A stretch of DNA of 64,000 nucleotides from NCBI RefSeq assembly GCF_003426815.1, contig NZ_QKYK01000005.1, positions 62,001 to 126,000 of the forward strand, written 5' to 3'. Numbering within the stretch: the first letter of the stretch is position 1; the number at the start of each line of letters is the position of its first letter. A program made the position numbers and the translations under genes. Below the pieces are notes generated by a model, which worked only from the letters and a program-made list of their open reading frames with translations, ran no database searches and had not been told where the DNA came from. Source of the DNA: Desertimonas flava. GTDB taxonomy: Bacteria; Actinomycetota; Acidimicrobiia; Acidimicrobiales; Ilumatobacteraceae. Of the stretch, positions 13,298 through 56,912 are shown piece after piece.

Positions 13298-14818
13298 ATG
13301 ACCCAGACGGACGACCGCCACACCACCGTCGACCTTTCCGCCTATCCGATCTCCGAGGCGACGGCACACCGCTTGCGCACGATGACCATCGGTCACGTGA
13401 TCGACGGCGTCGTCGTCGGACCAGGATCGTCGGGCACGCTCCCTGTGTACGACCCGTCGACCGGTCGGGCCGTCGCGTCGATGGCCGTCGCCGGCCCTTC
13501 CGAGGTCGAGGCAGCGATCGCATCGGCCCGCCAGGCGTTCGAGGACGGCCGATGGCAGTTCCTCGACCCGCTCGACAAGGAACGCCGCCTCCGTGAGCTC
13601 TCGCGCCTCATCGCCGTCCATGCCGAGGAGCTCGCCGAGCTCGACGTCATCGACGGCGGCATCCTGAGGGTCTACTCCGGATTCATCGCCAAGTTCGCCG
13701 TCGACGGCGTCGACTACTACAGCGGCTGGCCGACGAAGCTCCAGGGTTCGATCCCGGCAACCCCGGGCGACATCGTGGTGCGAGCGACCCGCGAACCGGT
13801 CGGTGTGGTCGGGCTGATCATGCCGTGGAACGGCCCCAGCGCCGTCGTCGTGGCCGTCGCCGCCGCTCTCGCGGCCGGCAACAGCGTGATCCTCAAGCCC
13901 GCCGAGCAGACGCCGATCACCGCCGTCCGCCTCGCCGAGCTGGCGCTCGAAGCGGGCATTCCACCGGGGGTCTTCAACGTCCTGCAGGGGACGGGCGATG
14001 TCGCCGGCGCCGGCCTCGTCGCCCACCCCGACGTCGACACGATCGCGTTCACCGGCTCGGTCGACACCGGTCGACGGATCCAAGCCGCGGCCGCGGCGAG
14101 GGTGAAGCGCGTCTCGCTCGAGCTCGGCGGCAAGAGTGCCCACATCGTGTTCGAAGATGCCGACCTGGACGCAGCAGCCGACGCCACCGCTGCCGCTGTC
14201 TGGGGCAACTCGGGGCAGGTGTGCACGGCCGGGTCGCGCGTCCTCGTCCAGCGCTCCGTCCACGACCGCTTGCTGGAGCGGATCATCGATCGTTCCAAGG
14301 GCCTGACCATCGGCAACGCGTTCGACCCGACGGCCCAGATCGGCCCACTGATCTCGGCGGATCAGCTCGATCGCGTCGCCGGCTACGTGACGATCGGCCG
14401 CGACGAAGGAGCCGAGCTCGTCCTCGGCGGGTCGCGCATCGGCGACGCCGGCTACTTCCACGAGCCGACCATCTTCGCCGGGGTCGACAACTCGATGCGG
14501 ATCGCCCGCGAGGAGATCTTCGGCCCTGTCATGTCGGTGATCCCGTTCGACTCCGAGGACGACGCGGTCCGCGTCGCCAACGACTCGGAGTTCGGGCTGG
14601 CGGCCGGGGTGTGGACGCAGGACGTGTCCCGGGCCCATCGCGTGCCTCGTCGTCTGAAGGCCGGCACGGTGTGGGTCAACACCTACCAGGCCGTCTATCC
14701 GTCGGTCCCCTACGGCGGAGTGAAGCAGTCCGGACACGGCCGCAACCTCGGCGCCGAGTCCCTTGACGACTTCCTACAGACCAAGAGCGTCTGGACTCGC
14801 ATCGGCGCCGAGCCGTGA
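13298..14818 (+). CDS. NAD(P)+-dependent aldehyde dehydrogenase
   Basis: 506 residues with all hallmarks: MPWNGPS (Asn of the oxyanion site), LKPAEQTP (cofactor Lys), FTGSVDTGR, general base Glu in LELGGKSA, nucleophile Cys in GNSGQVCTAGSR and the EIFGPVMSV loop. It oxidises an aldehyde to its acid with NAD(P)+. A GAGGAG ribosome site precedes the ATG. The operator at 13231 suggests control by an FCD regulator, in line with other catabolic genes here. The aldehyde substrate is unknown; adjacent crotonases and P450 suggest a side-chain degradation intermediate. Confidence 0.93.
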   Translation: MTQTDDRHTTVDLSAYPISEATAHRLRTMTIGHVIDGVVVGPGSSGTLPVYDPSTGRAVASMAVAGPSEVEAAIASARQAFEDGRWQFLDPLDKERRLRELSRLIAVHAEELAELDVIDGGILRVYSGFIAKFAVDGVDYYSGWPTKLQGSIPATPGDIVVRATREPVGVVGLIMPWNGPSAVVVAVAAALAAGNSVILKPAEQTPITAVRLAELALEAGIPPGVFNVLQGTGDVAGAGLVAHPDVDTIAFTGSVDTGRRIQAAAAARVKRVSLELGGKSAHIVFEDADLDAAADATAAAVWGNSGQVCTAGSRVLVQRSVHDRLLERIIDRSKGLTIGNAFDPTAQIGPLISADQLDRVAGYVTIGRDEGAELVLGGSRIGDAGYFHEPTIFAGVDNSMRIAREEIFGPVMSVIPFDSEDDAVRVANDSEFGLAAGVWTQDVSRAHRVPRRLKAGTVWVNTYQAVYPSVPYGGVKQSGHGRNLGAESLDDFLQTKSVWTRIGAEP

Positions 14819-14926: not shown

Positions 14927-16180
14927 ATGCTCGATGAACGACTCGACGACGAGCCAGGCGGCGGCCGGCGGGATGTCGGCACGTGCCCCGTCAAGCACTT
15001 CACGGTCTTCGACGACGTGGCCGCCGGGCACTACTGGGCCGCGACAGGCGAGCTGCGCGAGGAGACCCCCGCCTTCTTCAACGACCACGCGCAGGGGTAC
15101 TGGGTCGTCACCCGCCACGACGCGGTCAAGGACCTCTACCAGCGGACCGACCTCTTCTCCAGCGAGTCGTTCACCGCGTGGGAGCCCAACCCTCCGTATC
15201 GGTTCGTGCCGACGCAGATCGACCCGCCCGAGCACATCAAGTACCGCCAGCTGCTCAATCCGAAGTTCTCGCCGGGAGCTGTCGGCCGGGCCGAGGGACC
15301 GGCGCGAGAGATCGCCGAACGGCTGATCTCGCAGATCGCACCGTCGGGCCGGTGTGACTTCGTCGCCGACTTCGCCATCCGCTTCCCGACCGAGGTCTTC
15401 CTGACCGTCATCGGGCTGCCCCCGGCCGATGCCGACCTGCTCGTCCCGTGGGTGGAGGACTTCTTCCTCGGCCTCAACGGAGCCGAGGACAAGGTCGGCG
15501 GCATGGTGGCGGCCCTCGAGGGGATACGCGGCTACTTCGTCGATCTCCTCGCCCAACGGCGCGAGACGCCTGCCGACCCCGAGACCGACCTCATCCAGCA
15601 CCTGCTCGAGTCCGAGGTCGATGGCGAGCCGCTCTCGGACACCGTGCTGCTCGACATGTGCACCGTGCTCGTCCTCGCCGGACTCGACACGACACGCGGC
15701 CAGCTCGGCTACCTCTTCCAGTTCCTCGCCGAGCGGCCCGACGTGCGCCAGCAGATCGTCGACGATCCCTCGCTGATCCCTGCGTGCGTGGAGGAGTCGC
15801 TCCGCCTCCACTCGATCACGATCGCCGACGCCCGGAAGGCGACCAAGGACGCCGAGTTCCACGGGTGCCCGGTGCGCGCCGGCGACATGGTGATGGGCCT
15901 CGTCGCCGCCGCCAACCGGGATCCGCGCCACTACGAGTCGCCCGACGAGTTCCGGCTCGACCGCAAGGGGAACCACCACTTCGGCTTCGCCGGCGGCCCA
16001 CACCGCTGCCTCGGCGCCCACCTCGCCCGGCGCGAGATGATCGTCGCCGTCGAGGCGTGGCACGCCGCCATCCCGCACTACGAGATCGACGAGGGGGCCG
16101 AGCTCAGAGAGCGCGGCGGTCAGCTGACGCTGATCTCCCTTCCACTCCACTGGACACCCGCCGAGGGGGACGAACCATGA
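14927..16180 (+). CDS. Cytochrome P450
   Basis: 417 residues. The haem-binding loop reads FGFAGGPHRCLGAHLAR with the axial Cys; the K-helix has EESLR; the I-helix is VLAGLDTTRG with the acid-Thr pair for O2 activation. Class I soluble bacterial P450, receiving electrons from the ferredoxin encoded directly downstream with a 4-base overlap. The N-terminal CPVKHF and the general sequence style resemble P450s of terpenoid/steroid-degrading actinobacteria, but the substrate cannot be assigned. GGAGGGGG precedes the ATG. Controlled by the palindrome-filled promoter at 14848. Confidence 0.93.
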   Translation: MLDERLDDEPGGGRRDVGTCPVKHFTVFDDVAAGHYWAATGELREETPAFFNDHAQGYWVVTRHDAVKDLYQRTDLFSSESFTAWEPNPPYRFVPTQIDPPEHIKYRQLLNPKFSPGAVGRAEGPAREIAERLISQIAPSGRCDFVADFAIRFPTEVFLTVIGLPPADADLLVPWVEDFFLGLNGAEDKVGGMVAALEGIRGYFVDLLAQRRETPADPETDLIQHLLESEVDGEPLSDTVLLDMCTVLVLAGLDTTRGQLGYLFQFLAERPDVRQQIVDDPSLIPACVEESLRLHSITIADARKATKDAEFHGCPVRAGDMVMGLVAAANRDPRHYESPDEFRLDRKGNHHFGFAGGPHRCLGAHLARREMIVAVEAWHAAIPHYEIDEGAELRERGGQLTLISLPLHWTPAEGDEP

Positions 16181-16374
16181 AGCTGTTCATCGACGCCGAT
16201 GTCTGCACCGGCCACGGGCGCTGTTACACGCTCGCGCCGACGCTGCTCACCTACGACGACGAGGGATTCGTGACCGAACGAGGCGCCCCGCTCGACGTCC
16301 CGTCCGGCCTGGAGGGCGAGGCCCGCGAGGCCGCGCTCAGCTGCCCGGAGGGCGCCATCACCGTGCAGGACTGA
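16177..16374 (+). CDS. P450 redox-partner ferredoxin (3Fe-4S type)
   Basis: 65 residues with one iron-sulfur centre: CTGHGRC near residues 10-16 and a later SCPEGAI. The C-x2-H-x2-C arrangement with His in place of a cluster Cys is usual for 3Fe-4S ferredoxins that serve actinobacterial P450s. Start ATG overlaps the P450 stop (ATGA), so the pair is made together. No ferredoxin reductase is encoded nearby. Confidence 0.92.
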   Translation: MKLFIDADVCTGHGRCYTLAPTLLTYDDEGFVTERGAPLDVPSGLEGEAREAALSCPEGAITVQD

Positions 16375-17229: not shown

Positions 17230-17245
17230 GTTCATCATGATGATC
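17230..17245. promoter_or_regulatory. FCD operator, copy 1 of the divergent region
   Basis: GTTCATCATGATGATC contains the 12-base perfect palindrome TCATCATGATGA. It lies 30 bp upstream of the regulator's start and just before the -35 of the importer promoter. Confidence 0.65.
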
Positions 17246-17248
17246 CGG

Positions 17249-17278
17249 TTGACATCTCTTTATCATGATGAATACACT
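17249..17278 (+). promoter_or_regulatory. Promoter of the ABC importer with operator in spacer
   Basis: TTGACA (17249-17254) and TACACT (17273-17278) are 18 bp apart, with the operator TTTATCATGATGAA (17259-17272) between them. Together with copy 1 at 17230 this makes a double-operator switch for the gene starting at 17396. Confidence 0.65.
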
Positions 17279-17395
17279 CTGGCCGAGGCAGAAGGCTCCG
17301 ATCGGGTTTCGCCCCGCGAGACAGACCGAGGAGTGGTGAGATCGCCCCGATCTCCATCAAGTGAACTGCCACTGACGTACGGGGGTCCGTCATCC

Positions 17396-18973
17396 ATGAA
17401 CGACAATGCGGCGGTCAAACGGGCTCCCGCCTTGCAGATCATCGGGTTGAGCAAGACATTCCCCGGGCAGCGGGCGCTCGACGACGTCGACCTGACCGTC
17501 GCGGCCGGTGAGATCCACGCCCTCGTGGGCCAGAACGGGTCCGGCAAGTCGACGGTCGTCAAGGTCGTCGCCGGGTACCACGCACCCGACGCCGGCGCGA
17601 CGGCGACGGTCGACGGGGTCGAGTTCGAGCTGGGCTCGGCTCCAGCCGCCCTCGCCGCTGGGCTGCGGTTCGTCCACCAGGACCTCGGCCTCGTCGAATC
17701 GATGACGGTGTCGGACAACTTCAAGATGATGCAGGCGCAGCGGCGGCTGACCCCGCTGAGGCGGCGCGACGACCGCATCGCTGCCGGAGCGGCGCTGAGG
17801 GAGCTCGGCTACGACATCGACCCCGCAGCGGTGGTGGCCGATCTCGCCGAGTCCGAGCGCACCGCCGTCGCCGTCGCCCGGGCGCTCGACGGCGCCGACG
17901 AGGCGGCCACATTCCCCCTTCTCGTCCTCGACGAGGCGACGGCCGCTTTGCCGGGTCCCGAGGTCCAGCGGCTGTTCCGCGCCCTGCGCCGCATCGCCGA
18001 GCGGGGTACCGCGATCCTGTTCATCTCGCACTACCTCGACGAGGTGCTCGGCATCGCCGACGTCGTCACCGTCCTGCGCGACGGCCGCAAGGTGACCACC
18101 ACCGCGACCGACGGCGTCAGCCACGAACGGCTCGCCAACCTCATGCTCGGTCGCGAGCTCGTCGCCGATGCGGCGGCCAACACGCGCGTCACCAGCGGTC
18201 CGGCGGGTGCCAAGCCGGTGCTCGTCGCCCGCGGAGTGGGCGGCGCCGACCTGCTCCCCATCGACCTCGACGTCGCGCCAGGCGAGGTGCTCGGGGTCGC
18301 CGGACTGACCGGTTCAGGGCGCGACGAGCTCGCCTCGCTGCTCGGCGGGCGCCTACCGCGGGTTGGCGAGCTGACCGTGAACGACACCATCGTTGCGCCG
18401 ATGGCTCCGCACAAGGCGATCGACGCCGGGCTCTGCTACGTGCCGGCGGACCGCGGCAACGACGCGCTGTTCCGCATGGAATCGGTGCGGAACAACCTGA
18501 CGATCTCCGACCTCTCCCCGTTCTGGTCGCGGGGCCGGCTCCAGAGTGGCGACGAGCAGGCCCACGCCAAGGTCTGGATCGAGGAGCTCGACATCAAGCC
18601 GGCGCGCAGCGACATCGTGGTCGGCGAACTATCGGGAGGCAATCAGCAAAAGGTCGTGATGGCCCGCTGGTTCCGGTGCTCCCCCAAGGTCCTCGTGCTC
18701 GACGAACCGACCCAGGGCGTCGACGTGGGCTCGAAGGCCGACATCTACCGCATCGTCGACCTGGCCACCGATCGCGGCACGGCGACGATCGTGTGCTCGT
18801 CCGACAGCGCCGAGCTCGAGCGGCTGTGCTCACGGGTCCTCGTGCTGCACCGCGGCGCGGTCGTCGCCGAGCTCCAGGGGACCGACGTGACCGCCGAGCG
18901 GATCGAAGAGATCCAGCTCCTTCCCGACTCGACCCTGCAACGGCCCGCCGCCCGACAAGGAGCCCTCCAATGA
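17396..18973 (+). CDS. Ribose-type ABC importer, double ATPase subunit
   Basis: 525 residues, two nucleotide-binding domains in the RbsA/MglA manner. Domain 1 has Walker A GQNGSGKST, Q-loop HQDLGLVESM and Walker B LLVLDEATAALP, but its signature is degenerate (LAESERTAVAVARAL). Domain 2 has the usual weak Walker A (GLTGSGRDE) with a good signature LSGGNQQK and Walker B VLVLDEPTQGVD. It energises the permease encoded next, with which it overlaps by 4 bases. The family normally imports sugars, but the surrounding catabolic genes make another substrate likely. An FCD-controlled promoter lies upstream. Confidence 0.92.
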   Translation: MNDNAAVKRAPALQIIGLSKTFPGQRALDDVDLTVAAGEIHALVGQNGSGKSTVVKVVAGYHAPDAGATATVDGVEFELGSAPAALAAGLRFVHQDLGLVESMTVSDNFKMMQAQRRLTPLRRRDDRIAAGAALRELGYDIDPAAVVADLAESERTAVAVARALDGADEAATFPLLVLDEATAALPGPEVQRLFRALRRIAERGTAILFISHYLDEVLGIADVVTVLRDGRKVTTTATDGVSHERLANLMLGRELVADAAANTRVTSGPAGAKPVLVARGVGGADLLPIDLDVAPGEVLGVAGLTGSGRDELASLLGGRLPRVGELTVNDTIVAPMAPHKAIDAGLCYVPADRGNDALFRMESVRNNLTISDLSPFWSRGRLQSGDEQAHAKVWIEELDIKPARSDIVVGELSGGNQQKVVMARWFRCSPKVLVLDEPTQGVDVGSKADIYRIVDLATDRGTATIVCSSDSAELERLCSRVLVLHRGAVVAELQGTDVTAERIEEIQLLPDSTLQRPAARQGALQ

Positions 18974-20073
18974 CCACCGTCGTCACCGCCGTCGAGGCGC
19001 CGTCGAGGCGCCGGCTGCCGTCGCTTCCCGGCCTCGGCAAGGCGAGCGTCCTCTACCTGTTCGCGCTGATCTTCGTCATCTTCAGCCTGTGGATCCCCGA
19101 GACGTTCCTCACGCACTCCACGTTCAAGCTGGTCCTCGGGGACCAGGTCGTGATCGGCATCCTCGGACTCGCCGTCCTCGTGCCGCTCATCGCCGGCACG
19201 TTCGACCTGTCCGTGGGGGCGATGCTCGCCTTCGGCCTCGTCATCGTCAGCTGGTTCCAGGCCGAGACCGGCGTCAACCCGATCATCGCCGTCCTGCTGT
19301 CCCTCCTGGCGTGCGCGGCCGTCGGCTTCGTGTCCGGCCTGATCGTGGTCAAGCTGCGCGTCAACTCGTTCATCGCCACGCTCGGCATGAGCCAGGTGCT
19401 CACCGCCGCCACGCTCTACATCTCCAGCAACCGCCAGATCGTCGGGGTCTTCTCGAGCGGGTATCTCAGCTTCGGGCGGCGCCAGCCGTTCGGGATCCCG
19501 ATCGTCGTCTTCTACCTCGTCGCGTTGGCGCTCGTCATCTGGTATGTCATCGAGTGCACCCCGCTCGGGCGGCATCTCCAGGCCACCGGTGCCAACCCCG
19601 AAGCGGCCCGCCTGGCCGGTGTGCGCACCGACCGCATCGTGTGGGGATCGCTCGTCGCGTCGGCCACGGTCGCCGGCTTCGCCGGGGTCGTGTACGGCGC
19701 CAAGGTCGGATCGTTCTCCAACACGTTCGGCCCGCCCCTGCTGTTCCCCGCCTTCGCAGCCGTGTTCTTCGGCTCGACGCAGTTCAAGAACCGCGCCAAC
19801 GTGTGGGGCACCCTCATCGCCGTGTACACGCTGGCCTTCGGCGTGAAGGGCCTGCAGCTCGCGTTCGAGAGCGGCGTCTACTGGATCACTCCGGTCTTCA
19901 ACGGTCTCGCCCTGCTCGTCGCCGTGTCGCTGGCGAGCCGCAAGGCGATTCCCAGGCTGCGCCCGGCCCAGCGCGCCGAGCCGGAACCGACCGCCACCGG
20001 GCCCGACGCCGGACCGGCCGCCACGATCACGTCGGCCGACGCGGCCGAACGGTCCCCCCAGCCCACGCCGTGA
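18970..20073 (+). CDS. Ribose-type ABC importer, permease
   Basis: 367 residues, around nine hydrophobic segments from about 27 to 335, with the BPD_transp_2 motifs GTFDLSVGAMLAFG and SFIATLGMSQVLTA, and TPLGRHLQATGANPEAARLAGV for contact with the ATPase. The C-terminal 35 residues are a Pro/Ala/Thr-rich cytoplasmic tail. It forms a homodimeric channel with the upstream ATPase and downstream binding protein. ATG overlaps the ATPase stop. Confidence 0.93.
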   Translation: MTTVVTAVEAPSRRRLPSLPGLGKASVLYLFALIFVIFSLWIPETFLTHSTFKLVLGDQVVIGILGLAVLVPLIAGTFDLSVGAMLAFGLVIVSWFQAETGVNPIIAVLLSLLACAAVGFVSGLIVVKLRVNSFIATLGMSQVLTAATLYISSNRQIVGVFSSGYLSFGRRQPFGIPIVVFYLVALALVIWYVIECTPLGRHLQATGANPEAARLAGVRTDRIVWGSLVASATVAGFAGVVYGAKVGSFSNTFGPPLLFPAFAAVFFGSTQFKNRANVWGTLIAVYTLAFGVKGLQLAFESGVYWITPVFNGLALLVAVSLASRKAIPRLRPAQRAEPEPTATGPDAGPAATITSADAAERSPQPTP

Positions 20074-20089
20074 CCCGTCACGGCGTGGG
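20062..20089 (+). terminator. Hairpin at the permease stop, intra-operon
   Basis: A perfect 13-bp inverted repeat (20062-20074 with 20077-20089) embraces the permease stop codon, 71 bp before the binding-protein start. It may act as an attenuator or as an RNA end that shields the upstream message and so sets the relative yield of membrane and binding proteins. Confidence 0.5.
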
Positions 20090-20159
20090 TACCACCACGC
20101 CCGGAACCTTCCGGGACAGACAAACCGCCGGCGATCCACCGGCACCAAGGGAGAGATCC

Positions 20160-21278
20160 ATGAAGCGATACGTGTCCATGGCCGCGGCGGGCCTCCTCGC
20201 CGCCGGCTTCGCCGCAGCCGGAACTGCCTCGGCTGGTTCCGAACCGTCCGGTGATCCGGCGGCCGACGCCGAGGCCGCCGCCGAGCGGGTGGCGCCGTAC
20301 CTCGAGCCGGTGACCGAGATCCCCGTCACCGAGCCGCTCGACGCGGTGCCCGAGCCCGGGCGCAAGGTGTACTGGCTGGAGGGCAACATCCAGTCGATCC
20401 TGCCGATCACCGGCGGGTTCGAGGCTGCGACGGCAGCCCTCGGCTGGGACCTCACCACCATCACGTACGACCCGGCCGATCCGCAAGGACCCAATGCGGC
20501 CATGCAGCAGGCCGTGGACGCCGGTGCCGACTACATCGCCATCTCCGGACAACCGGTGTCAGCCATCGAGCAGGCGCTGGCCGCGGCGAAGGCAGCCGAG
20601 ATCCCGGTCTTCGCGATGTTCGGCGAGAACGTGTCCGATCCCGAGACGGGGATCGTCGGCGTGGTCGGCGGGCTCGACCTCACGGCCGACAACGCCGAGC
20701 GCCTCGGCGACTTCATGATCGCCGAGTCGGGGGGCGAGGCCGACATCCTCATCGTCAACGTCCCCGACTTCACGATCCTCGCCTATGCCGAAGAAGTCCT
20801 CACCACCCACCTCGACGAGAACTGTGGCGCCTGTGAGTACGAGACGCTGGAGGGCACGATCTCGGACATGGCCTCGGGTGCGCTGTCTGGTCAGATCGTG
20901 TCGTACCTCCAGACCCACCCGGAGACGACGGACATCTACCTCGCCATCGGCGATATGGCCCTCGGCCTGCCCGAGTCGATCGAGGCCGCCGGCATCGACA
21001 CCGATGCCCGGATCCTTGGCGGTGTGCCCAACGTCGACCAGATCCAGTCGTTGATCGACGGAACCACCGATGCCTGGATGACGCTGCCGCGCGTGTCGGC
21101 CGCGTGGCAGATGGTGGACGGGATGGCTCGCTACGACCTCGGGATGGACGTGTCGGTCTCCGAGGCGGTTCCGATGCGACCGATCTACACCCCGGACAAC
21201 GTCCCCTCGCCCGCCGAGGACTACGCCGGCGTCGAAGGCTACGAGGACCAGTGGAAGGCCCTGTGGGGAGTCGAGTGA
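20160..21278 (+). CDS. Ribose-type ABC importer, substrate-binding protein
   Basis: 372 residues with an export signal (MKRYVSMAAAGLLAAGFAAA, cleavage near the following ASAG). The mature part is a type I periplasmic-binding fold (Peripla_BP_4): KVYWLEGNIQS, AVDAGADYIAISGQ, a hinge stretch ENVSDPETGIVG and MALGLPESIEAAG. An Asp/Glu/Ala-rich linker precedes the fold. Two cysteines (CGAC) occur in the middle, unusual in this family and possibly a disulfide. AAGGGAGAG precedes the start. Ligand unknown; it is encoded with the importer and a SnoaL-like protein. Confidence 0.88.
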   Translation: MKRYVSMAAAGLLAAGFAAAGTASAGSEPSGDPAADAEAAAERVAPYLEPVTEIPVTEPLDAVPEPGRKVYWLEGNIQSILPITGGFEAATAALGWDLTTITYDPADPQGPNAAMQQAVDAGADYIAISGQPVSAIEQALAAAKAAEIPVFAMFGENVSDPETGIVGVVGGLDLTADNAERLGDFMIAESGGEADILIVNVPDFTILAYAEEVLTTHLDENCGACEYETLEGTISDMASGALSGQIVSYLQTHPETTDIYLAIGDMALGLPESIEAAGIDTDARILGGVPNVDQIQSLIDGTTDAWMTLPRVSAAWQMVDGMARYDLGMDVSVSEAVPMRPIYTPDNVPSPAEDYAGVEGYEDQWKALWGVE

Positions 21279-21806: not shown

Positions 21807-24131
21807 CTACCGCGAGTCGGCCATCGCGAGATGGATGGCCATCGGGGTGAGCGGCTGGCGCGTCAGGCGGGCACCGAGATGGGCGACCGCGTCGGCGACG
21901 GCATTGATGACCGCCGGCGGGGCGCCGATCGCCCCACCCTCGCCCATCCCCTTGTAGCCGCCCGGGTTGGTGGCGGCCGGTGTCTCGATGTGCCCGTACT
22001 CGATCACCGGAACCTCGGCGGCGGTGGGCAGCAGGTAGTCGACGAACGTCGTGCTCAGCGGGTTGCCGTCGTCGTCGTAGACCATGTGCTCGTACAGCAC
22101 GCCGCCGATCCCCTGGACGACGCCGCCGGCGATCTGGCCCTCGACGATGTCGGGATTGATCATCACGCCGCAGTCCTCGCTCACCACGTATCGCAGCAGC
22201 CGGACCTCGCCGGTCCGCGGATCGACCTCGGCGAGGCAGGCGTGGCACGAGTTGGAGAACGTGAACGGGGCGTCGGGGCTGTAGCGCGCCTTCTCCTCCA
22301 GTCCCATCTCGAGGCCGGCCGGCAGGGCGGCCGGGTTGAGGTAGGCCATCCGGGCGACCTCGGCGATGGAGACTGACCTCGTCGGCGTGCCCGCCACCGA
22401 GACCGCTCCGGCGTCGACCACGAGGTCGTCGGCAGCGGCTTCGAGGTGGTGAGCGGCGATCTCGACGACCTTGGCACGCACCCGGTCGGCCGCCAGGTCG
22501 GCCGCGCCGCTCAGGATCACCGCGCTCCGGCTGCCGCCGGTGCCCGGGCCGAACGGCGCCGACGCCGTGTCGCCCTGGACGACGGTGACGTCGTCGACCG
22601 AGACGCCGAGCCGGTCGGCGACGACCTGGGCGATCGTCGTCTCCAGGCTCTGGCCGTGGTTGCCACTGCTCATCAGTGCCTGGACCTGACCGTTGACGCC
22701 GATGCTGACGACGGCGCCCTCGCTCGCCATGTTGCCGACGGCGAGACCCGACGGCTCGACGTAGAGCCCGAGTCCGACGCCGACGCAGCGGCCCTCGGCA
22801 CGCGCCCTGGCCTGCTCGGCCCGGATCTCGTCGTAGCCGATCATGCTCACCGCCTGCTCGAGGGAGGCGGCGATCGACACCCGGTCGTACACCAGCCCGG
22901 CCGCCGTCGTGTACGGCAGGTCGATGTCGCGCACGACGTTGCGGCGGCGCAGCTCGAGCGGGTCGATGCCGAGCTCGCGGGCGACGTGGTCCATCATCTG
23001 CTCACGGATGACGGTCTCCATCATCCACGGTCCCCGGTACGAGCAACGCCCGCAGGTGTTGGAGTAGGCGGCCGTCGCGCTGAAAGCGACCTTGGGGATC
23101 CGGTACGGCCCGGCGAAGAGCAGCCCGACGAACCCGATGGCGCTCGAGCCGGCGGCGGGGAAGGCGCCGACGTCCTCCACCAGGTCGGCTCTCACTCCGA
23201 GGATGCGAGCGTCGGCGTCGAGCGCCACGCTCACGGTCATCGAGTCGTTGCGGGCGTGCTGGCCCGCCAGCAGGTTCTCGCGCCGGTCCTCGATCCACTT
23301 GACCGGCCGGCCGAGAAGCTTCCCGGCGATCACGACCGCCAGCTCGTCGGGAAGCATGAACATCTTCTGACCGAAGCCGCCGCCGACGTCACCCATGACG
23401 ACGCGGACGCGGTTCTCGGGAAGCTGCAGCGCCCGCGACAGGAAGCCACGGACGCCGTGCGCTCCCTGGGTGGAGGTGTGGACCACGAGTTCGTTGCGGA
23501 ACGCGTCGTACTGCGAGACGATGCCCCGGCACTCCATCGGGACGCAGAGGTAGCGGTGCTGGTGGAACGTCTCGGTGACCACCCGCTCCGCGTCCTCGAA
23601 GATGCGGTCGAGCTCGGGGTCAGGAGCCGCCGGGATCTGGCCCGCCACGTTGTCGGCCCGGTCCGGATGGACGGGGCGCGCCCCTGCCGCGAGTGCGGCG
23701 TCGACACCGACGACGGCGTCGATCGGATCGATCTCGACCTCGACGAGTTCGCAGGCGTCCTCGGCGACGTACCGGCTCTCGGCCACCACCATGACGAGCG
23801 GCTCACCGGCGAAGCGCACGTCGCCCTCGGCCATCATCCGGAACGGGCGGCCCTGGTCGCCACCTTCGAAGTCCACCCAGGACTCGGCGACGAGATGGTT
23901 GATGTCGGCGCCGCTGAAGACACCGACGACGCCGGGCAGCTCGCGGGCTGCGTCGGTGTCGAGCCGCACGATCGTGCCGGCCGCCACGTCGCTGCGGACG
24001 AACGCGACGTGCAACATGCCGGCGACGGACACGTCGTCGACGTACGTGCCGTGTCCGGTCAGCAACCGCGCGTCCTCGCGACGCTGGACGCGCTGGCCGA
24101 CGAAGCGGTTCCCGGCCGGGCCGCTGCTCAT
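21807..24131 (-). CDS. Molybdenum hydroxylase large subunit (xanthine dehydrogenase family)
   Basis: 774 residues, the molybdopterin-cytosine-dinucleotide binding subunit. Markers: RREDARLLTGHGTYVDD at the N-terminus, GGGFGQKMF for the cofactor, and catalytic Glu in GYKGMGEGGAIGAPP near the C-terminus. The active-site loop reads CGRCSYRGPW where form I CO dehydrogenases have AYRCSFR and form II enzymes AYRGAGR, so CO oxidation is unlikely and a hydroxylase of a carbonyl or N-heteroaromatic is more likely. Last gene of a four-gene operon (P450, FAD, FeS, Mo subunits), its ATG overlapping the FeS subunit's stop. A longer frame to 24236 exists; ATG at 24129-24131 is the normal start MSSGPAGNRFVGQ. 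Confidence 0.9.
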   Translation of the reverse strand: MSSGPAGNRFVGQRVQRREDARLLTGHGTYVDDVSVAGMLHVAFVRSDVAAGTIVRLDTDAARELPGVVGVFSGADINHLVAESWVDFEGGDQGRPFRMMAEGDVRFAGEPLVMVVAESRYVAEDACELVEVEIDPIDAVVGVDAALAAGARPVHPDRADNVAGQIPAAPDPELDRIFEDAERVVTETFHQHRYLCVPMECRGIVSQYDAFRNELVVHTSTQGAHGVRGFLSRALQLPENRVRVVMGDVGGGFGQKMFMLPDELAVVIAGKLLGRPVKWIEDRRENLLAGQHARNDSMTVSVALDADARILGVRADLVEDVGAFPAAGSSAIGFVGLLFAGPYRIPKVAFSATAAYSNTCGRCSYRGPWMMETVIREQMMDHVARELGIDPLELRRRNVVRDIDLPYTTAAGLVYDRVSIAASLEQAVSMIGYDEIRAEQARARAEGRCVGVGLGLYVEPSGLAVGNMASEGAVVSIGVNGQVQALMSSGNHGQSLETTIAQVVADRLGVSVDDVTVVQGDTASAPFGPGTGGSRSAVILSGAADLAADRVRAKVVEIAAHHLEAAADDLVVDAGAVSVAGTPTRSVSIAEVARMAYLNPAALPAGLEMGLEEKARYSPDAPFTFSNSCHACLAEVDPRTGEVRLLRYVVSEDCGVMINPDIVEGQIAGGVVQGIGGVLYEHMVYDDDGNPLSTTFVDYLLPTAAEVPVIEYGHIETPAATNPGGYKGMGEGGAIGAPPAVINAVADAVAHLGARLTRQPLTPMAIHLAMADSR

Positions 24132-24658
24132 GCCGTCACCCCGCTCGGTGCGCCGCCGCCCGCCGCTCTCGCGTTCCGGCGGCTGGCGACGAGTTGGACG
24201 GCCCGGACGATGCCCTGGTACCCGGTGCACCGGCACAGGTTGCCCGACAGACCGTCACGGATCTGGGCGTCGTCGGGGTCGGGATGGCGCTCGAGCAGGG
24301 CGTGGATCGAGACCACGAAGCCCGGCGTGCAGAAGCCGCACTGGAGACCGTGGCACTCGTGCATCGCCTGCTGGACGTCCGAGAGCTCGCCCGGAGCCGG
24401 CGCGACGCCCTCGATCGTCGTCACGGCCGCGCCCTCGGCCTGGACGGCGAACATCAGGCAGGCGCGTACCGCCTCGCCGTCGACGAGCACCGTGCACGCC
24501 CCGCACACGCCGTGCTCGCAGCCCAGGTGGGTTCCCGTGAGTCCGAGCTCCTCGCGCAGGGCATCGGCGAGCAGCGTGCGAGGATCCACGTCGATGCCCC
24601 GTTGCGACCCGTTGACGGTCATGGTCACGCGGACCGCGGTGTCGGCGGATGATCTCAT
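24128..24658 (-). CDS. Molybdenum hydroxylase 2Fe-2S subunit
   Basis: 176 residues with two [2Fe-2S] clusters: the plant-type site GCEHGVCGACTVLVDGE ending in a Cys eleven residues on, and the C-terminal four-helix site QCGFCTPGF plus NLCRCTGYQ. It carries electrons from the Mo centre to FAD. ATG overlaps the stop of the FAD subunit gene (ATGA), and its own stop overlaps the large subunit start. Confidence 0.95.
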   Translation of the reverse strand: MRSSADTAVRVTMTVNGSQRGIDVDPRTLLADALREELGLTGTHLGCEHGVCGACTVLVDGEAVRACLMFAVQAEGAAVTTIEGVAPAPGELSDVQQAMHECHGLQCGFCTPGFVVSIHALLERHPDPDDAQIRDGLSGNLCRCTGYQGIVRAVQLVASRRNARAAGGGAPSGVTA

Positions 24659-25533
24659 CGTTCCTCCTCGGCGTTGCGCAGTGCCATGGTCCAGGCGTCG
24701 GCCATCATCGCGGCGGCAACCCGGGCGCGATAGGACGCGGGGACCTGGGAGTCGTCGGTGACGTCCTCGACGGACGCCAGCGCATCGTCGCCGAGGGCGG
24801 TCGCGTCGACGCTCGCGGCCGACCTGCCGATCAGCGTCCGCTCGACGGCATCGAGCCGGACGGGGATGTCGCTGACGCCGAAGAGGCCGAGTGCGCAGCG
24901 CACGATCGCGGCGTCGGCATCCAGTTCGACGGCAGCGACGGCGCCGGCGATGGCGAAGTCGCCGTGGCGCCGGGCGAACTCGGCGACGCCGAACCCGGAG
25001 CGGCCCGACCACACCGGGAAGTCGACGGACACGAGCACCTCGTCGGCCTCCATGCTGGTGGACCAGAACCCGGTGAAGAAGTCGGCGGCGGCGATCGTCC
25101 GCCGCCCGGAGGCCGACGCCACCGTCATCGTGGCGTCGAGTACCCGGGCGACGGCCGGGTACTCGGCCGACGGGTCGGCGTGGGCGATCGAACCGCCGAC
25201 GGTGCCGCGGTTGCGGATCTGGAAGTGACCGATGTACGGCGTCACGAGCGTCAGCAGCGGCACCGCGTCCGCGACGCGGGGGTCGGTTTCGATCGCCGCA
25301 TCACGTGTCCCGGCACCCACCGTGAGCCGGTCGGGGTGGCGTTGCACACCGCACAGCTCGTCCACCCGGCCGAGGTCGACGAGATCGTCGAAACGGGCCA
25401 GCCGCAGGTTGAGCATCGGGACCAGGCTCTGACCACCGGCAAGGATCTTGCCCCCGTCACCCACGGCGGCGATCGTCTGCAACAGCTCGTCGAGTCGTCG
25501 CGGCGCGTGGTACCGGAACGGGGGTGGCTTCAC
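24655..25533 (-). CDS. Molybdenum hydroxylase FAD-binding subunit
   Basis: 292 residues. The PCMH-type FAD domain shows KILAGGQSLVPMLNLRLA and IRNRGTVGGSIAHADPSAEYP, the two phosphate-binding loops, and the CoxM C-terminal domain follows. Start GTG at 25531-25533 overlaps the P450 stop codon (GTGA), so the hydroxylase is translated in step with the P450. The electron acceptor (quinone or NAD+) cannot be told. Confidence 0.93.
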   Translation of the reverse strand: MKPPPFRYHAPRRLDELLQTIAAVGDGGKILAGGQSLVPMLNLRLARFDDLVDLGRVDELCGVQRHPDRLTVGAGTRDAAIETDPRVADAVPLLTLVTPYIGHFQIRNRGTVGGSIAHADPSAEYPAVARVLDATMTVASASGRRTIAAADFFTGFWSTSMEADEVLVSVDFPVWSGRSGFGVAEFARRHGDFAIAGAVAAVELDADAAIVRCALGLFGVSDIPVRLDAVERTLIGRSAASVDATALGDDALASVEDVTDDSQVPASYRARVAAAMMADAWTMALRNAEEER

Positions 25534-26765
25534 GACCGCCGCCAGACCAGCGGCAGCGAGATCAGCGACACCTGTCCGCCGCGGGCGAGCAACGGCTCGT
25601 CCTGGTCCACCTCGAACTCCGGGATCACCTTGAGCCATTCCTCGAGCGCCAGGCGCAACTCGACACGGGCGAGGTGCGAGCCCAGGCAGCGGTGCTCGCT
25701 CGCGCCGAAGGCGATGTGCCGGTTCGGGCTGCGGTCGATCCGCACCTGATCGGCGTCGGGGAAGACCCTGGGGTCGCGAGTGGCCGACTGGATGCTCAGC
25801 AGGACCATGTCGTCCTTGTGCATCGGGCAGCCCTTGAAGTTCACATCCCGTGTCACCTTGCGCGCCATCGAGACGATCGGGAAGACCCGGAGGAACTCCT
25901 CGACGGCACTGGGGATCAGCGCCGGCTCGCCGACCAGTCGGGAGCGGTCGGCAGGCGTTGTGGCGAGGTGCCACATCTGCCAGCCCAGCTGGCTCTTCAG
26001 CGTGTCGAGACTGCCGAGCGTGAGCGTGACCAGGATGTCGATGATGTCCGCATCCGGCATGGGAGCGTCACCGAGCGGCGCCGTGCTCATCATCGTCACG
26101 AAGTCCAGGGACGGATCGAGCGGCCGGCGGCGACGATCGGCCAGCATGTCCTCCCAGTACGCGGCCAACTCCCCCCAGGCCGCGGTCATCGCGGCTGCGG
26201 CTTCGTCACCCCCGCCGGCGTTGCCCGACATCCGGTGGGCGATCGAGACGAAGAACTCGGCGTCGTCCATCGGTAGGCCCATCGAGGCGAGGAAGCCGGC
26301 GACCGGAAACCGATCGCCGAAGGCCGCCATGTAGTCGCACGATCCGTCGTCGGCCACGCGGGCCACCTCGGCCGCGGCCAGCTCGCGAAGGCGCGGTTCG
26401 AGACGCTGCACCGAGGCCGGTGAGAACCACGGGTTCATGGGTCGCCGGTAGTCCATGTGGATCGGCGGGTCCGAGAACGAGGGCAAGAACCGGTAGGCGG
26501 GGTCGGGGTTCGTCGCGACGATGGAGTGGTTCGAGAACAGCTCAGGCGACTGGAAGGCCTCGCGGATGTCGTCGTAGCGCGTGAGGACCCAGTACCCCTG
26601 CGCCTCGGTGTTGAAGAAGTAGCGATGCTGCTCGCGCAGCTCGTCGATGGTCCGCCAGTGGGTCAGCGCTGGTGCCGTCTCGTTGAGATCGACGAACAGC
26701 GACGCGGGACTCTCCTGGTTCTCGTCGGTCTCGGTGACGTCGGCTGCGCCGGTCGATGCGTCCAC
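25530..26765 (-). CDS. Cytochrome P450, first gene of the molybdenum hydroxylase operon
   Basis: 411 residues. Haem loop AFGASEHRCLGSHLAR, K-helix EEFLR, I-helix LGSLDTLKSQ with Ser in place of the usual Ala before the acid position. Start GTG at 26763-26765 after a strong GAGGGGG; a longer frame to 26879 lacks one. No ferredoxin gene is linked, so it must borrow one (possibly that at 16177). Being coupled to a Mo hydroxylase suggests two successive oxygenations of one compound, one using O2 and one using water. A TTGACA -35 (26861-26866) and an operator-like sequence lie upstream. Confidence 0.92.
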   Translation of the reverse strand: MDASTGAADVTETDENQESPASLFVDLNETAPALTHWRTIDELREQHRYFFNTEAQGYWVLTRYDDIREAFQSPELFSNHSIVATNPDPAYRFLPSFSDPPIHMDYRRPMNPWFSPASVQRLEPRLRELAAAEVARVADDGSCDYMAAFGDRFPVAGFLASMGLPMDDAEFFVSIAHRMSGNAGGGDEAAAAMTAAWGELAAYWEDMLADRRRRPLDPSLDFVTMMSTAPLGDAPMPDADIIDILVTLTLGSLDTLKSQLGWQMWHLATTPADRSRLVGEPALIPSAVEEFLRVFPIVSMARKVTRDVNFKGCPMHKDDMVLLSIQSATRDPRVFPDADQVRIDRSPNRHIAFGASEHRCLGSHLARVELRLALEEWLKVIPEFEVDQDEPLLARGGQVSLISLPLVWRRS

Positions 26766-26968: not shown

Positions 26969-27994
26969 ATGTCCGACGAGAACCGACAGCTGCTGCTTCG
27001 TGAGCGTCCGCTCGGGGTGGTGACCGACGAGTGCTTCGAGATGGCGCGCACCGCAGTGCCCCAACCTGGCGACGGTCAGATCCTGGTCCGCACCCTGTGG
27101 CTCGGTTTCGAACCGGCAATGCGCGGCTGGTTGAACGACATCCGTTCGTACACACCGCCCGTGGGCATCGGTGAGGTGATGCGCGCGTGGGGTATCGGCC
27201 AGGTCGTCGACTCACGGCATCCCGACCACGCCGTCGGTTCTCTCGTCCACGGCGACCTCGGCTGGCAGGACTACGCCCTGCTCGACGGCGGCGACACCGG
27301 CATCGAGCGCGTGCCCGACGGCATCTCCGATCCGCGGCTGATGCTGAGTGTGGCCGGGCTGACCGGTCTGACCGCGTACTTCGGAATGACCGAGGTCGGC
27401 CGCCCCGAGGCCGGCGACGTGGTGCTCGTGACGGCCGCCGCCGGGGCGACCGGATCGGTCGCCGCCCAGATCGCCAGAGCACTCGGCGCGGGACGGGTGA
27501 TCGGCACGGCCGGGAGTCCGGAGAAGCGGGACTGGGTGCGCGAGGTCGCCGGGCTCGACGACTGCCTCGACCACCACGACCCCGAGGTGCGCAGGGCGAT
27601 CCGCTCCGCGGCGCCGGAGGGATTGAACGTCGTGTTCGACAACGTCGGCGGCTCGCTTCTGGACGCTGCGCTGTTCAACATCGCGGTCGGTGCCCGCATC
27701 GCACTGTGCGGTTCGATCTCGACGGGCTACCGGCCCGAGCGGCCCGAGGTCGGCATCCACTACTACCAGCTGCTCACCACGCGCCGCTCGCGCATGGAGG
27801 GCTTCTTGGTCTCGGACCACAGCGATCGCTACACCGAGGCCCGCCAGCGGCTGCTCGACTGGGTGGCGGACGGGAGCATCCGGGTGGAGTACGACGTGTT
27901 GGACGGCCTGGAGCACGCGCCGGAGGGAATCCGCCGGCTGTTCGAGGGCAAGAACCTGGGCAAGCAGCTCCTCCACGTCGCCGATCCCGGCTGA
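26969..27994 (+). CDS. NADP-dependent medium-chain oxidoreductase (CurA/LTB4-reductase-like)
   Basis: 341 residues of the zinc-free MDR branch. N-terminal MSDENRQLLLRERPLG and PAMRGWLND are typical of the CurA/leukotriene B4 12-hydroxydehydrogenase/prostaglandin reductase group. The Rossmann domain has VTAAAGATGSVAAQIARALGA and GTAGSPEKRDWV; FDNVGG follows. Members reduce the double bond of enones with NADPH. AAAGGGG precedes the ATG. Divergent from the P450/Mo hydroxylase operon and sharing a region with two operator-like sequences, so it may reduce an enone made in that pathway. Confidence 0.9.
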   Translation: MSDENRQLLLRERPLGVVTDECFEMARTAVPQPGDGQILVRTLWLGFEPAMRGWLNDIRSYTPPVGIGEVMRAWGIGQVVDSRHPDHAVGSLVHGDLGWQDYALLDGGDTGIERVPDGISDPRLMLSVAGLTGLTAYFGMTEVGRPEAGDVVLVTAAAGATGSVAAQIARALGAGRVIGTAGSPEKRDWVREVAGLDDCLDHHDPEVRRAIRSAAPEGLNVVFDNVGGSLLDAALFNIAVGARIALCGSISTGYRPERPEVGIHYYQLLTTRRSRMEGFLVSDHSDRYTEARQRLLDWVADGSIRVEYDVLDGLEHAPEGIRRLFEGKNLGKQLLHVADPG

Positions 27995-29105: not shown

Positions 29106-30251
29106 CTACCGGGCCAGCACGGTGCAGGCGCTGATGCCGGGGGCACCGTAGACGTGCGTGAACCCTACCTGTGGATCGTTGGGCACCTGCCGATCGCCGG
29201 CCTCGCCCCGCAACTGCACCACGATTTCGTGCACCTGCCGCAGCCCTGATGCTCCGATCGGTTCGCCGTTGGCGATGCAACCTCCGTCGGTGTTGATCGG
29301 CAGCCGGCCGTTGATCTCCGTCGCCCCCGACATGATGAGGTCGACCTGCTCGCCATGCTCGCAGAGGCCCGTCTCGGCCATGTGCATCAGCTCAGCGCCT
29401 GCCTCGGTGTCCTGCACCTGGGCGACATCGACGTCGGATGGCTCGACGCCGGCCTGCTCGAACGCCTCCCTGGCCGCTTGCACCGTGGGCCCATCGGTCC
29501 GGTCGGGCGACAGCGAGGGAGAGAACACCTCGAACGTGCCGTAGGCGCGCGAGCGCATCACGCACGACTTCAGGTACACGGGCCGATCGGTGAAGCGTGA
29601 CGCCAGCTCGGCCCGGCACAGCACGAGGGCGACGGCGCCTTCGGCGGGCGAGCAGAACATGTACTTCGTCAGCGGCTTGCTCAGCATGTCCGACGACTCG
29701 ATCTCCTCGACGCTCATCGGGCGGCGCCGCCACGCGTTCGGGTTGAGCGCCCCGTTGCGGTACGCCTTGGCCGCGATCGCCGACAGGACGGCCGGGTCGA
29801 TGTCGTGGTCGTGCAGGTAGCGCTGGGCCTTGATGCCGAAGAACTGCGTGGTCAGCATCAGGCCGGTCTCGCCGTACCACTCGCCGAGCCCGTAGGACGC
29901 AGGGTCGGCGTTGAATGCTCCCGGCGGGTGCTTGTCGAATCCGATGGCGATCCCCACGTCGTAGTCACCAGATCGGATGGCGCGATCGGCCATCGCCAGG
30001 CTGCTGCCGCCCGTGGCGCAGCCGTTGATGACGTTGACGAACTCGATCCCGGTCAGGCCGAGGTCGGCCACCAGGGCGTCGGCGTTGCCGGCTGCGGCGC
30101 TCCCCCCGAAGGCGAACTGCACGCCCCCCCAGCCGATGCCGGCGTGGGCAAGGGCCTGGCGGGCCGCGTGTGCGCCCTGCTCCCGCCCCGACACGCCGTC
30201 GTGACGGCCGAAGGGATGGATCCCCACGCCGACGATCGCTACCTCGGTCAT
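29106..30251 (-). CDS. Thiolase-like lipid-transfer protein, Cys retained
   Basis: 381 residues, SCP-x/lipid-transfer type thiolase. The nucleophile position is kept as C78 in NGCATGGSS. Near the C-terminus the thiolase motif NxGGxxAxGHPxGASG appears as NTDGGCIANGEPIGASG, with Glu in place of the His of GHP, which would change the proton-transfer chemistry. It may be a thiolase or an aldolase acting on a CoA thioester. Its ATG overlaps the stop of the DUF35 gene upstream (ATGA), and such pairs form complexes in known systems (for example BbsAB and Ltp2-ChsH2). Confidence 0.85.
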   Translation of the reverse strand: MTEVAIVGVGIHPFGRHDGVSGREQGAHAARQALAHAGIGWGGVQFAFGGSAAAGNADALVADLGLTGIEFVNVINGCATGGSSLAMADRAIRSGDYDVGIAIGFDKHPPGAFNADPASYGLGEWYGETGLMLTTQFFGIKAQRYLHDHDIDPAVLSAIAAKAYRNGALNPNAWRRRPMSVEEIESSDMLSKPLTKYMFCSPAEGAVALVLCRAELASRFTDRPVYLKSCVMRSRAYGTFEVFSPSLSPDRTDGPTVQAAREAFEQAGVEPSDVDVAQVQDTEAGAELMHMAETGLCEHGEQVDLIMSGATEINGRLPINTDGGCIANGEPIGASGLRQVHEIVVQLRGEAGDRQVPNDPQVGFTHVYGAPGISACTVLAR

Positions 30252-30712
30252 GACGTCACCTCCGTCTCGGGGCCCGTGCTGGGCGCGAACGCGAACGTGT
30301 AGACCGCACCGTCGTCGCCAGTGCGGATCGGCTCCAAGACCAGCTGCAGGGCGTCGCCGACCTCGAGGGAGTCGACATCATCGGCGATGAGCCGCGACTC
30401 GACGAGGATCTCGTCGCCGAGGTTCACGTACCCGACGGCGTAGGGCCGGAACGGTCGTTCATCGGCGTTGAGATACGGGGTCTTCGGCGGGAACCCCTGG
30501 ATCGTGTAGGCCCAGAGGGTGCCCCGAGTGGGCAAGGCGATCTCGCTGACCGCACTGCCGGTGCACTTGGGGCACGACTGCTGTGCGGGGAACGAAACGG
30601 TCCCGCAGGAGTCACACCGCGACCCCCGCAGCGCCCACCCGCCGGCCGGATCGGCGACGAAGAGCGCCTCGTCGACGAAGCGACTGCCGGTCCCATCGAT
30701 TGTCACTGTCAT
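30248..30712 (-). CDS. DUF35/OB-fold acyl-CoA-binding partner protein
   Basis: 154 residues. A rubredoxin-like zinc ribbon (CDSCG and CPKC, C-x2-C twice, about residues 33-51) followed by an OB fold (LWAYTIQGFPP, PYAVGYVNLGDE). These proteins bind CoA thioesters and pair with thiolase-like enzymes. Two ATGs stand in tandem (30710-30715); the second is preferred because GGAGGG is five bases away rather than two. First gene of the operon with the thiolase-like gene and the APH kinase; an operator with an embedded TATAAT lies about 105 bp upstream. Confidence 0.88.
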   Translation of the reverse strand: MTVTIDGTGSRFVDEALFVADPAGGWALRGSRCDSCGTVSFPAQQSCPKCTGSAVSEIALPTRGTLWAYTIQGFPPKTPYLNADERPFRPYAVGYVNLGDEILVESRLIADDVDSLEVGDALQLVLEPIRTGDDGAVYTFAFAPSTGPETEVTS

Positions 30713-30815
30713 CATCGCCCTCCGTTCAGGGCCACAGGCCCGCTCGACATCCTGACGCTGCGTGCCCCCCGTGGCAGGTGGCCGGTACCCCCGTGGGGGC
30801 CTCCACCGACGGACA

Positions 30816-40299: not shown

Positions 40300-40318
40300 C
40301 GATCCCCCTTCGGACAAA

Positions 40319-40358
40319 TTCATTATGAGATTTACTCGGAGATGCCGCTCGATGTCAA
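40319..40358 (-). promoter_or_regulatory. Promoter and operator of amidohydrolase copy A
   Basis: TTGACA (40353-40358, minus) is 17 bp from GTAAAT (40330-40335). The operator-like TTCATTATGAGATT (40319-40332) overlaps the -10 and the likely start of transcription, 20 bp before the ATG. Confidence 0.55.
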
Positions 40359-47347: not shown

Positions 47348-47385
47348 GCGACGCTGCTCGGCGCGTCACGACACGAGGAGGGGTG

Positions 47386-55664: not shown

Positions 55665-55668
55665 CGGT

Positions 55669-56877: not shown

Positions 56878-56912
56878 GTGATTCCTCCTCGGCTCGTGAG
56901 AGACTGCTCGAC

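Follow-up and report, generated by a model that had tools for sequence, protein, structure and literature searches.

The closest described precedent for the locus reported here is the lumichrome (riboflavin) catabolic cluster of Nocardioides simplex, in which the cytochrome P450 LumU, a self-sufficient fusion enzyme, and the xanthine oxidase (XO)-type enzyme LumJ, a single chain, act on one compound at steps separated by hydrolyses and a decarboxylation (PMC12746152). Action of a P450 and an XO-type enzyme from one cluster on one compound is already in print in that report, there at separate steps. Here we describe a four-gene operon that encodes a P450 and the three subunits of a molybdenum (Mo) hydroxylase, found in a 64,000-nucleotide stretch of the Desertimonas flava genome (contig NZ_QKYK01000005.1, positions 62,001 to 126,000; hereafter the window). 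Like the lumichrome cluster, that of the window is an actinobacterial catabolic cluster with both a P450 and an XO-type enzyme, but it encodes a separate P450 and three subunits in place of the fusion P450 and the single chain. The lumichrome cluster also includes ring hydrolases, a thiamine pyrophosphate decarboxylase, and a catechol dioxygenase; in the part of the window open reading frames (ORFs) scanned, the decarboxylase and the dioxygenase were not recognized and amidohydrolases are present. In having separate subunits the Mo enzyme resembles quinoline 2-oxidoreductase (1t3q) and nicotine dehydrogenase (NdhABC). NdhC is 40% identical to the window Mo subunit and stands beside its clade in our tree, but carries the active-site loop AFRGVG rather than YRGPW, and no P450 is among the annotated features of the ndhABC stretch fetched, for which the feature table is incomplete. 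Among the best-ranked results from open-licence PubMed Central (PMC), we found no paper in which such a three-subunit Mo hydroxylase is coupled to a P450. We find that a P450 gene adjoins the Mo genes at every locus examined whose Mo subunit has the loop SYRGPW, and we propose, with a probability of about 0.6, that the P450 and the Mo hydroxylase are made together from this operon within a catabolic cluster and act on the same compound or its product.

Organization of the operon

The operon and its diagnostic motifs are as follows:

25530 to 26765, minus strand: P450, first gene of the operon, with a GTG start after GAGGGGG; PF00067, 75 bits (Pfam cut-off 22.8)
24655 to 25533, minus strand: flavin adenine dinucleotide (FAD) subunit of an XO-family Mo hydroxylase; glyceraldDH_beta, 214 bits (cut-off 350), and FAD_binding_5, 149 bits
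24128 to 24658, minus strand: 2x[2Fe-2S] iron-sulfur (FeS) subunit; glyceraldDH_gamma, 196 bits (cut-off 290), and Fer2_2, 113 bits
21807 to 24131, minus strand: Mo (catalytic) subunit; MoCoBD_2, 270 bits, MoCoBD_1, 219 bits, and Ald_Xan_dh_C, 91 bits
26001 to 26015, minus strand: P450 I-helix motif GSLDT, with Ser at the usual second Gly
25680 to 25709, minus strand: P450 Cys loop FGASEHRCLG, with Ser at the usual Gly of FxxGxxxCxG
23025 to 23042, minus strand: active-site loop SYRGPW, residues 364-369 of the Mo subunit

The P450 gene (stop 25532-25530) and the FAD gene (GTG at 25533) share the four bases GTGA, and ATGA is shared both by the FAD gene (stop at 24655) and the FeS gene (ATG at 24658) and by the FeS gene (stop at 24128) and the Mo gene (ATG at 24131). 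This agrees with the initial annotation of the sequence, which had placed four genes here with a 4-base overlap at each junction. Because such overlaps are widespread in bacteria and alone are little proof, the real evidence for a functional tie is not the overlaps but the fact that the linkage is conserved. The four-gene operon itself encodes neither a ferredoxin nor a reductase.

Linkage of the P450 to SYRGPW loci

A contig scan supplied 54 loci with a YRGP-type Mo gene, and a sample of 395 genomes of the class supplied 45 places, one of them the window's own and 44 additional; as a control we used 31 AYRGAGR-type loci, taken from 296 genomes of that class. Ten duplicates were removed, and L060 and L062, whose sequences stop short of the motif, were left out of the counts (L and G numbers are our handles for loci and genomes). 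A P450 was scored as linked when it lay within 1.3 kb on the same strand. The profile used to detect P450s was derived from those present at the loci themselves, and strongly diverged P450s may therefore have escaped it. A P450 was found beside the Mo genes at 7/7 SYRGPW loci, 10/80 other YRGP loci (12/80 when either strand is allowed), and 0/31 AYRGAGR loci, and the corresponding values for loci with both flanks of at least 1.3 kb are 4/4, 8/58, and 0/24. The comparison of SYRGPW with other YRGP loci gives a p of 3e-6, ignoring relatedness, while that of the other YRGP loci with the control is not significant (Fisher p 0.059), so that a general P450 habit of the wider YRGP clade is suggested rather than demonstrated. 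The SYRGPW rows form one clade in an 86-row Mo tree (100 in the Shimodaira-Hasegawa-like approximate likelihood ratio test, SH-aLRT; supports in the Mo trees come from quick searches), which includes only six of the control rows, omits nine rows that were short or incomplete, and was built with the Ser column kept. On the Mo tree the P450 label requires 7 changes, and the starred branches force at least 6 of these; shuffled labels need a mean of 15.8.

The initial annotation had named close relatives of this Mo hydroxylase without a neighboring P450 as the observation that would overturn a connection. That search returned a P450 at all seven SYRGPW loci, which make up a single clade, and the linkage is therefore real and not due to chance. 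A chance neighborhood, or hitch-hiking of unrelated genes, might be favored by the abundance of P450 genes in this 6.2-Mb genome, about 20 (22 matches, two genes matched twice), and by L063, which has a distant kind of P450 within the SYRGPW clade; set against 7/7 versus 0/31 and an adjacency kept despite rearrangement, it is very improbable, and it was rejected on those counts.

The relatives differ in gene order. L009 reads amidohydrolase-P450-FAD-FeS-Mo; L010, L011, and L012 read FAD-FeS-Mo-P450, with a SnoaL_4 gene directly before the FAD gene; L013, which begins within the Mo gene, reads Mo-P450; and L063 reads FAD-FeS-P450-Mo. The P450 gene nonetheless has a 4-base overlap with the FAD gene in L009, with the Mo gene in L011, L012, and L013, and with the FeS gene in L063, and ORF coordinates give the same for L010 (P450 start 10355, Mo stop 10358), where the P450 runs off the locus. 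Other junctions are of 8 bases (FAD/FeS in L009-L012 and L063) or 1 base (FeS/Mo in L009), and the P450 and Mo genes abut in L063. Conserved pairing despite changed gene order suggests that the two enzymes probably work on the same compound. The Mo and P450 trees concur in setting the window and L009 against L010-L013. Further genes recur in these relatives, with SnoaL_4 and thiolase genes beside the Mo trio in L010-L012, a gene for an oligonucleotide/oligosaccharide-binding (OB)-fold protein in L010 and L011, and an enone reductase gene behind the P450 in L011-L013. L011 and L012 are two contigs of one metagenome-assembled genome with a nearly identical Mo-P450 group, reflecting a duplication or mixed strains.

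The Mo hydroxylase and its active-site loop

XO-family domains of the FAD, 2x[2Fe-2S], and Mo subunits were all detected in the operon products, FAD_binding_5 and Fer2_2 both scoring above their Pfam cut-offs, and the active-site Glu 731 is present in the C-terminal loop KGMGEGG of the Mo subunit and aligned in relatives. By these domains and this residue the trio is predicted to be an XO-family molybdenum hydroxylase. In NCBIfam all three subunits score best against models of glyceraldehyde dehydrogenase, in each case below the equivalog cut-off (595 bits against 790 for the Mo subunit, for which the other listed models also fall short), and none of the three passes any NCBIfam equivalog cut-off. 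Among solved structures the Mo subunit matches quinoline 2-oxidoreductase first (529 bits), then a CoxL protein (512 bits), and then CO dehydrogenases. That the enzyme is itself an aerobic CO dehydrogenase of form I or II has almost no likelihood: the large-subunit models score 588 and 536 bits, but both scores lie below the cut-offs of 950 and 991 bits, SYRGPW stands in place of AYRCSFR with its Cu-binding Cys or of AYRGAGR, and no cox accessory genes (coxD/E/F/G) were recognized among the Pfam-scanned window proteins, which cover part of the ORFs. Form II is further opposed by the separation of AYRGAGR and YRGPW rows into different clades. The CO dehydrogenase assignment was rejected on loop and scores.

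The initial annotation was correct that SYRGPW is neither the CO dehydrogenase nor the form II motif, but its view of the loop as a new active-site type in itself finds no support, as the YRGPW loop is clade-wide. Among 56 rows of a motif alignment (the window, L002, which is the same gene, and L009-L062), SYRGPW is present in the window, L002, and L009-L013, to which L063 is added; PYRGPW occurs in two rows (L017, L046), PYRGPF in three (L018, L028, L041), and AYRGPW in most others. YRGPW is thus common to most relatives, the P450-linked branch being set apart by the Ser alone, and since YRGPW marks a wide clade, the stand-alone novelty of SYRGPW is reduced. In a 33-row Mo tree the 20 YRGPW rows form one clade (SH-aLRT 100), which is separate from the AYRGAGR rows and groups (94) with a Thermomicrobium protein and nicotine dehydrogenase. 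The equivalent loop of bovine xanthine dehydrogenase is A910-F911-R912-G913-F914-G915, so that Pro and Trp of YRGPW would occupy the positions of the substrate-stacking Phe and a Gly. Neither AYRGPW nor SYRGPW occurs in any of the open-licence PMC papers searched, and the sole match to YRGPW there is a paper on Lake Victoria ecosystem adaptation; a search of the same literature and of the equivalog models found no characterized member of the YRGPW clade. The genome (6.22 Mb, 73 contigs) has 9 MoCoBD_1 matches. A plasmid search gave Mo matches of up to 44%, with none closer among the matches listed, and a single P450 match (41%, E 1e-60).

The P450 and its subfamily

The operon P450 has the marks of its superfamily, including the Cys ligand, ExxR (as EEFLR), the I-helix Asp-Thr, and PF00067 above its cut-off. 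Its best solved-structure matches are 3lxh (185 bits) and 6wgw, named CYP101D1 (183 bits), with CYP101J2 and CYP143 further down. Membership of the CYP101 family calls for more than about 40% identity to its members; on the strength of these bit scores the P450 is described here as CYP101-like. Like CYP101D1, CYP101J2, and P450cam, the window P450 keeps the Asp-Thr pair, but it differs from them in having Ser for Gly in both the I-helix and the Cys loop. FxxGxxxCxG is the P450 Cys-loop signature; the departure of the window protein from it is a variation and gives no ground for exclusion from the P450s. The P450s of the window, L009, L010-L013, and L143 (genome G643) form one clade with an SH-aLRT of 100. 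The I-helix Ser is present in 7/7 members of this clade and the Cys-loop Ser in 6/6 of those reaching that site, L010 ending before it, while neither change is seen in the 26 other P450s aligned or in four from L144-L146. These two Gly-to-Ser changes at near-invariant sites, present in all clade members that cover them, mark this P450 subfamily.

A second P450 group (SH-aLRT 99) joins L063 to the Mo-linked L093, L094, L095, L097, L137, and L138, with L079 attached less surely (82); its members have 23-27% identity to the window P450. Because L063 and this group are so distant from the window P450, P450s of different kinds pair with these Mo genes. Within the second group, an assembly of a short-chain dehydrogenase/reductase gene, a Mo-subunit gene, and a P450 gene recurs in L093, L094, L095, L097, and L138. 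The fetched stretches of these loci contain neither a FAD nor a FeS gene, and in L093 and L097 the Mo gene overlaps that of the P450.

Clusters with the P450 but without the Mo genes

Several findings weigh against a joint action of the two enzymes. The P450 of G643 (L143) is 56% identical to that of the window and has the same two Gly-to-Ser changes, and yet no Mo genes occur in the 19 kb around it; the nearest Mo gene genome-wide is 42% identical to the window's, whereas even the weakest members of the YRGPW clade reach 46-49%, and as far as identity tells it would fall outside that clade. G554 and G366 have similar clusters with related P450s (41-47%) and no Mo genes in the stretches fetched, the best Mo match genome-wide being 44% in G554 and none in G366. 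L063, within the SYRGPW Mo clade, pairs with a P450 of only 27% identity and shares less of the catabolic cluster with the window. Near-copies among the SYRGPW rows (L010/L013, L011/L012) reduce the seven rows to about five lineages. Finally, an aldehyde dehydrogenase encoded in the window cluster (13298-14818) could handle an aldehyde step alone. The suggestion in the initial annotation of two successive hydroxylations of one ring is, in view of the G643 P450 without Mo genes and the distant P450 of L063, a guess that these data do not bear out.

The extent to which the G643 cluster otherwise corresponds to the window is considerable, with matches to an amidohydrolase (70%), thiolase-like proteins (72 and 69%), an acyl-CoA dehydrogenase (58%), an APH-type kinase (61%), an ATP-binding cassette (ABC) transporter ATPase (46%), its binding protein (34%), a SnoaL_4 protein (43%), and others. 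The presence of a window-type P450 in G643 without the Mo gene indicates that the P450 is not dependent on this Mo enzyme, and the Mo-less clusters of G643, G554, and G366 together indicate that the P450 and a coenzyme A (CoA)-dependent pathway form the core, to which the Mo trio is an addition, probably acting on the same compound. Since G643 nests within the P450 clade (SH-aLRT 99), loss of the Mo genes in G643 may account for the pattern as well as separate gains would. The G643 cluster provides a natural comparison that could show the purpose of the added step.

The surrounding cluster and the proposed pathway

The operon lies among genes that point to import and CoA-dependent breakdown of a compound:

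8635 to 10041, 39121 to 40323, and 47383 to 48564: three amidohydrolase-superfamily genes
13298 to 14818: aldehyde dehydrogenase
14927 to 16180, plus strand: second P450; PF00067
16177 to 16374, plus strand: single-cluster ferredoxin (Fer4_15), overlapping the second P450; candidate redox partner
17237 to 21278, plus strand: sugar-type ABC importer (ATPase, permease, binding protein); PF00005, PF02653, PF13407
21275 to 21727, plus strand: SnoaL_4 protein, convergent with the Mo gene; PF13577, weak match to a putative scytalone dehydratase
26969 to 27994, plus strand: enone/double-bond reductase of the medium-chain dehydrogenase/reductase (MDR) superfamily, divergent from the operon; PF16884, PF00107
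29106 to 30251, minus strand: SCP2/BbsB-type thiolase-like protein; PF22691, with matches in PDB to SCP2-thiolase and benzoylsuccinyl-CoA thiolase chains
30248 to 30715, minus strand: OB-fold (ChsH2/DUF35-type) partner of the thiolase-like protein; PF01796, PF12172
30857 to 32581, minus strand: acyl-CoA ligase; PF00501
32591 to 33808, minus strand: class III CoA-transferase; PF02515

Acyl-CoA dehydrogenase and enoyl-CoA hydratase genes are also present in the window. The structure matches of the MDR enzyme are led by 4b7c (292 bits), followed by double-bond and pulegone reductases. The cluster resembles the thiolase/OB-fold pairs BbsAB and Ltp2-ChsH2 in having thiolase-like and OB-fold genes together, with matches that include a benzoylsuccinyl-CoA thiolase chain and the lipid-transfer protein 6ok1; these pairs belong to the surroundings of the operon and not to the operon itself.

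The whole fits two steps of one pathway, for which we infer a common substrate, a redox partner, and an order and chemistry of steps. The sugar-type ABC transporter would import the compound. The operon P450, probably fed by the ferredoxin at 16177-16374, would perform an O2-dependent hydroxylation, and the Mo enzyme would use oxygen from water to oxidize the same compound or a product of it, most likely at a C-H next to a ring nitrogen or at an aldehyde C-H, giving a lactam or an acid for later steps. The MDR enzyme may then reduce an enone, and activation as a CoA ester, beta-oxidation-like shortening, and cleavage by the thiolase/OB-fold pair could complete the breakdown.

The target of the Mo enzyme may be sought in two directions. 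On the first, the P450 makes an alcohol or aldehyde from a methyl or methylene group and the Mo enzyme serves only to oxidize the aldehyde to an acid, which is then CoA-activated. The glyceraldehyde dehydrogenase models that best match all three subunits, if below their cut-offs, and the CoA ligase and CoA-transferase genes are in keeping with such a role, but the closest solved relative is quinoline 2-oxidoreductase, the tree neighbor is nicotine dehydrogenase, and the cluster has its own aldehyde dehydrogenase, and we consider this reading possible but rather doubtful. Those same quinoline and nicotine hydroxylases, nearest by solved structures and tree, suggest instead that the Mo enzyme hydroxylates the carbon next to a ring nitrogen while the P450 oxidizes another position, as in lumichrome catabolism, the published precedent for action of both kinds of enzyme on a single heterocycle (PMC12746152). 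The three amidohydrolase-superfamily genes of the window could open a nitrogen ring. Pfam scans covering part of the window ORFs, however, revealed no clear gene for nitrogen-ring breakdown, and the P450 is nearest to CYP101 enzymes, which are known for terpenoids; this second direction is also tentative, and we hold it no more firmly than the first.

P450s take their oxygen from O2 and consume electrons, whereas Mo hydroxylases take theirs from water and release electrons. The two enzymes might form a redox-coupled pair, in which the two electrons gained at the Mo center pass via the FeS and FAD subunits to the P450, with a need for O2 and for little or no NAD(P)H. Such coupling would suit the tight 4-base overlaps that survive rearrangement, the lack of a ferredoxin or reductase gene in the operon itself, and the presence of P450s of different families beside YRGP-type Mo genes. 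The distribution of the window-type single-cluster ferredoxin leans slightly the same way: it is unmatched in the short stretches fetched for the six other SYRGPW loci (L009-L013, L063), and has relatives in the Mo-less stretches of G643 (65 codons, 44%), G554, G366, and G091 (L143, L145, L100, L101), while it is also unmatched in the Mo-less stretches L099, L144, and L146. Against this, the same-clade P450 of G643 belongs to a cluster without this Mo enzyme, the window ferredoxin is 10 kb away, a [2Fe-2S] ferredoxin gene is present in L010 and in L011 (in the latter by Pfam Fer2), and among 45 YRGP loci with flanks of 4.5 kb or more, 17, four of them P450-linked, have no FAD or FeS gene nearby. 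We regard electron transfer between the two enzymes as improbable, and single-cluster ferredoxins would be the natural electron donors of these P450s. Similarly improbable is the broader idea that SYRGPW enzymes are a distinct class of Mo hydroxylase evolved as P450 partners, the two forming one machine in which electrons from the Mo site help to activate O2 at the heme, for one oxygen insertion from O2 and one from water at little or no cost in NAD(P)H. The conserved, overlapping pair offers a favorable case for studying how O2 and water chemistries are brought together on one molecule in bacteria, and if the pair acts in tandem, the operon would provide two enzymes ready for use in oxidizing rings or side chains.

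Additional features of the loci

Orphan Mo subunits of the kind counted above include those of L079, L094, L095, L097, L031, L032, L064, L072, and L075, among others. G412 has one FAD gene, in a FAD-FeS pair on a Mo-less contig, against four complete Mo genes and a further weak, partial match; several catalytic subunits may share a single electron-transfer module in trans. The SnoaL_4 gene, with its GTG start, begins within the last 4 bases of the binding-protein gene, and the same order is found in G554 (L145). The ABC ATPase and binding protein are matched in the Mo-less clusters of both G643 and G554, and the permease in G554; a Thermomicrobium Mo trio also adjoins a sugar ABC importer. The window contains three thiolase-like and two OB-fold genes in all (29106-30715, 35351-36538, and 55236-56949), and two of the thiolase genes adjoin an OB-fold gene.

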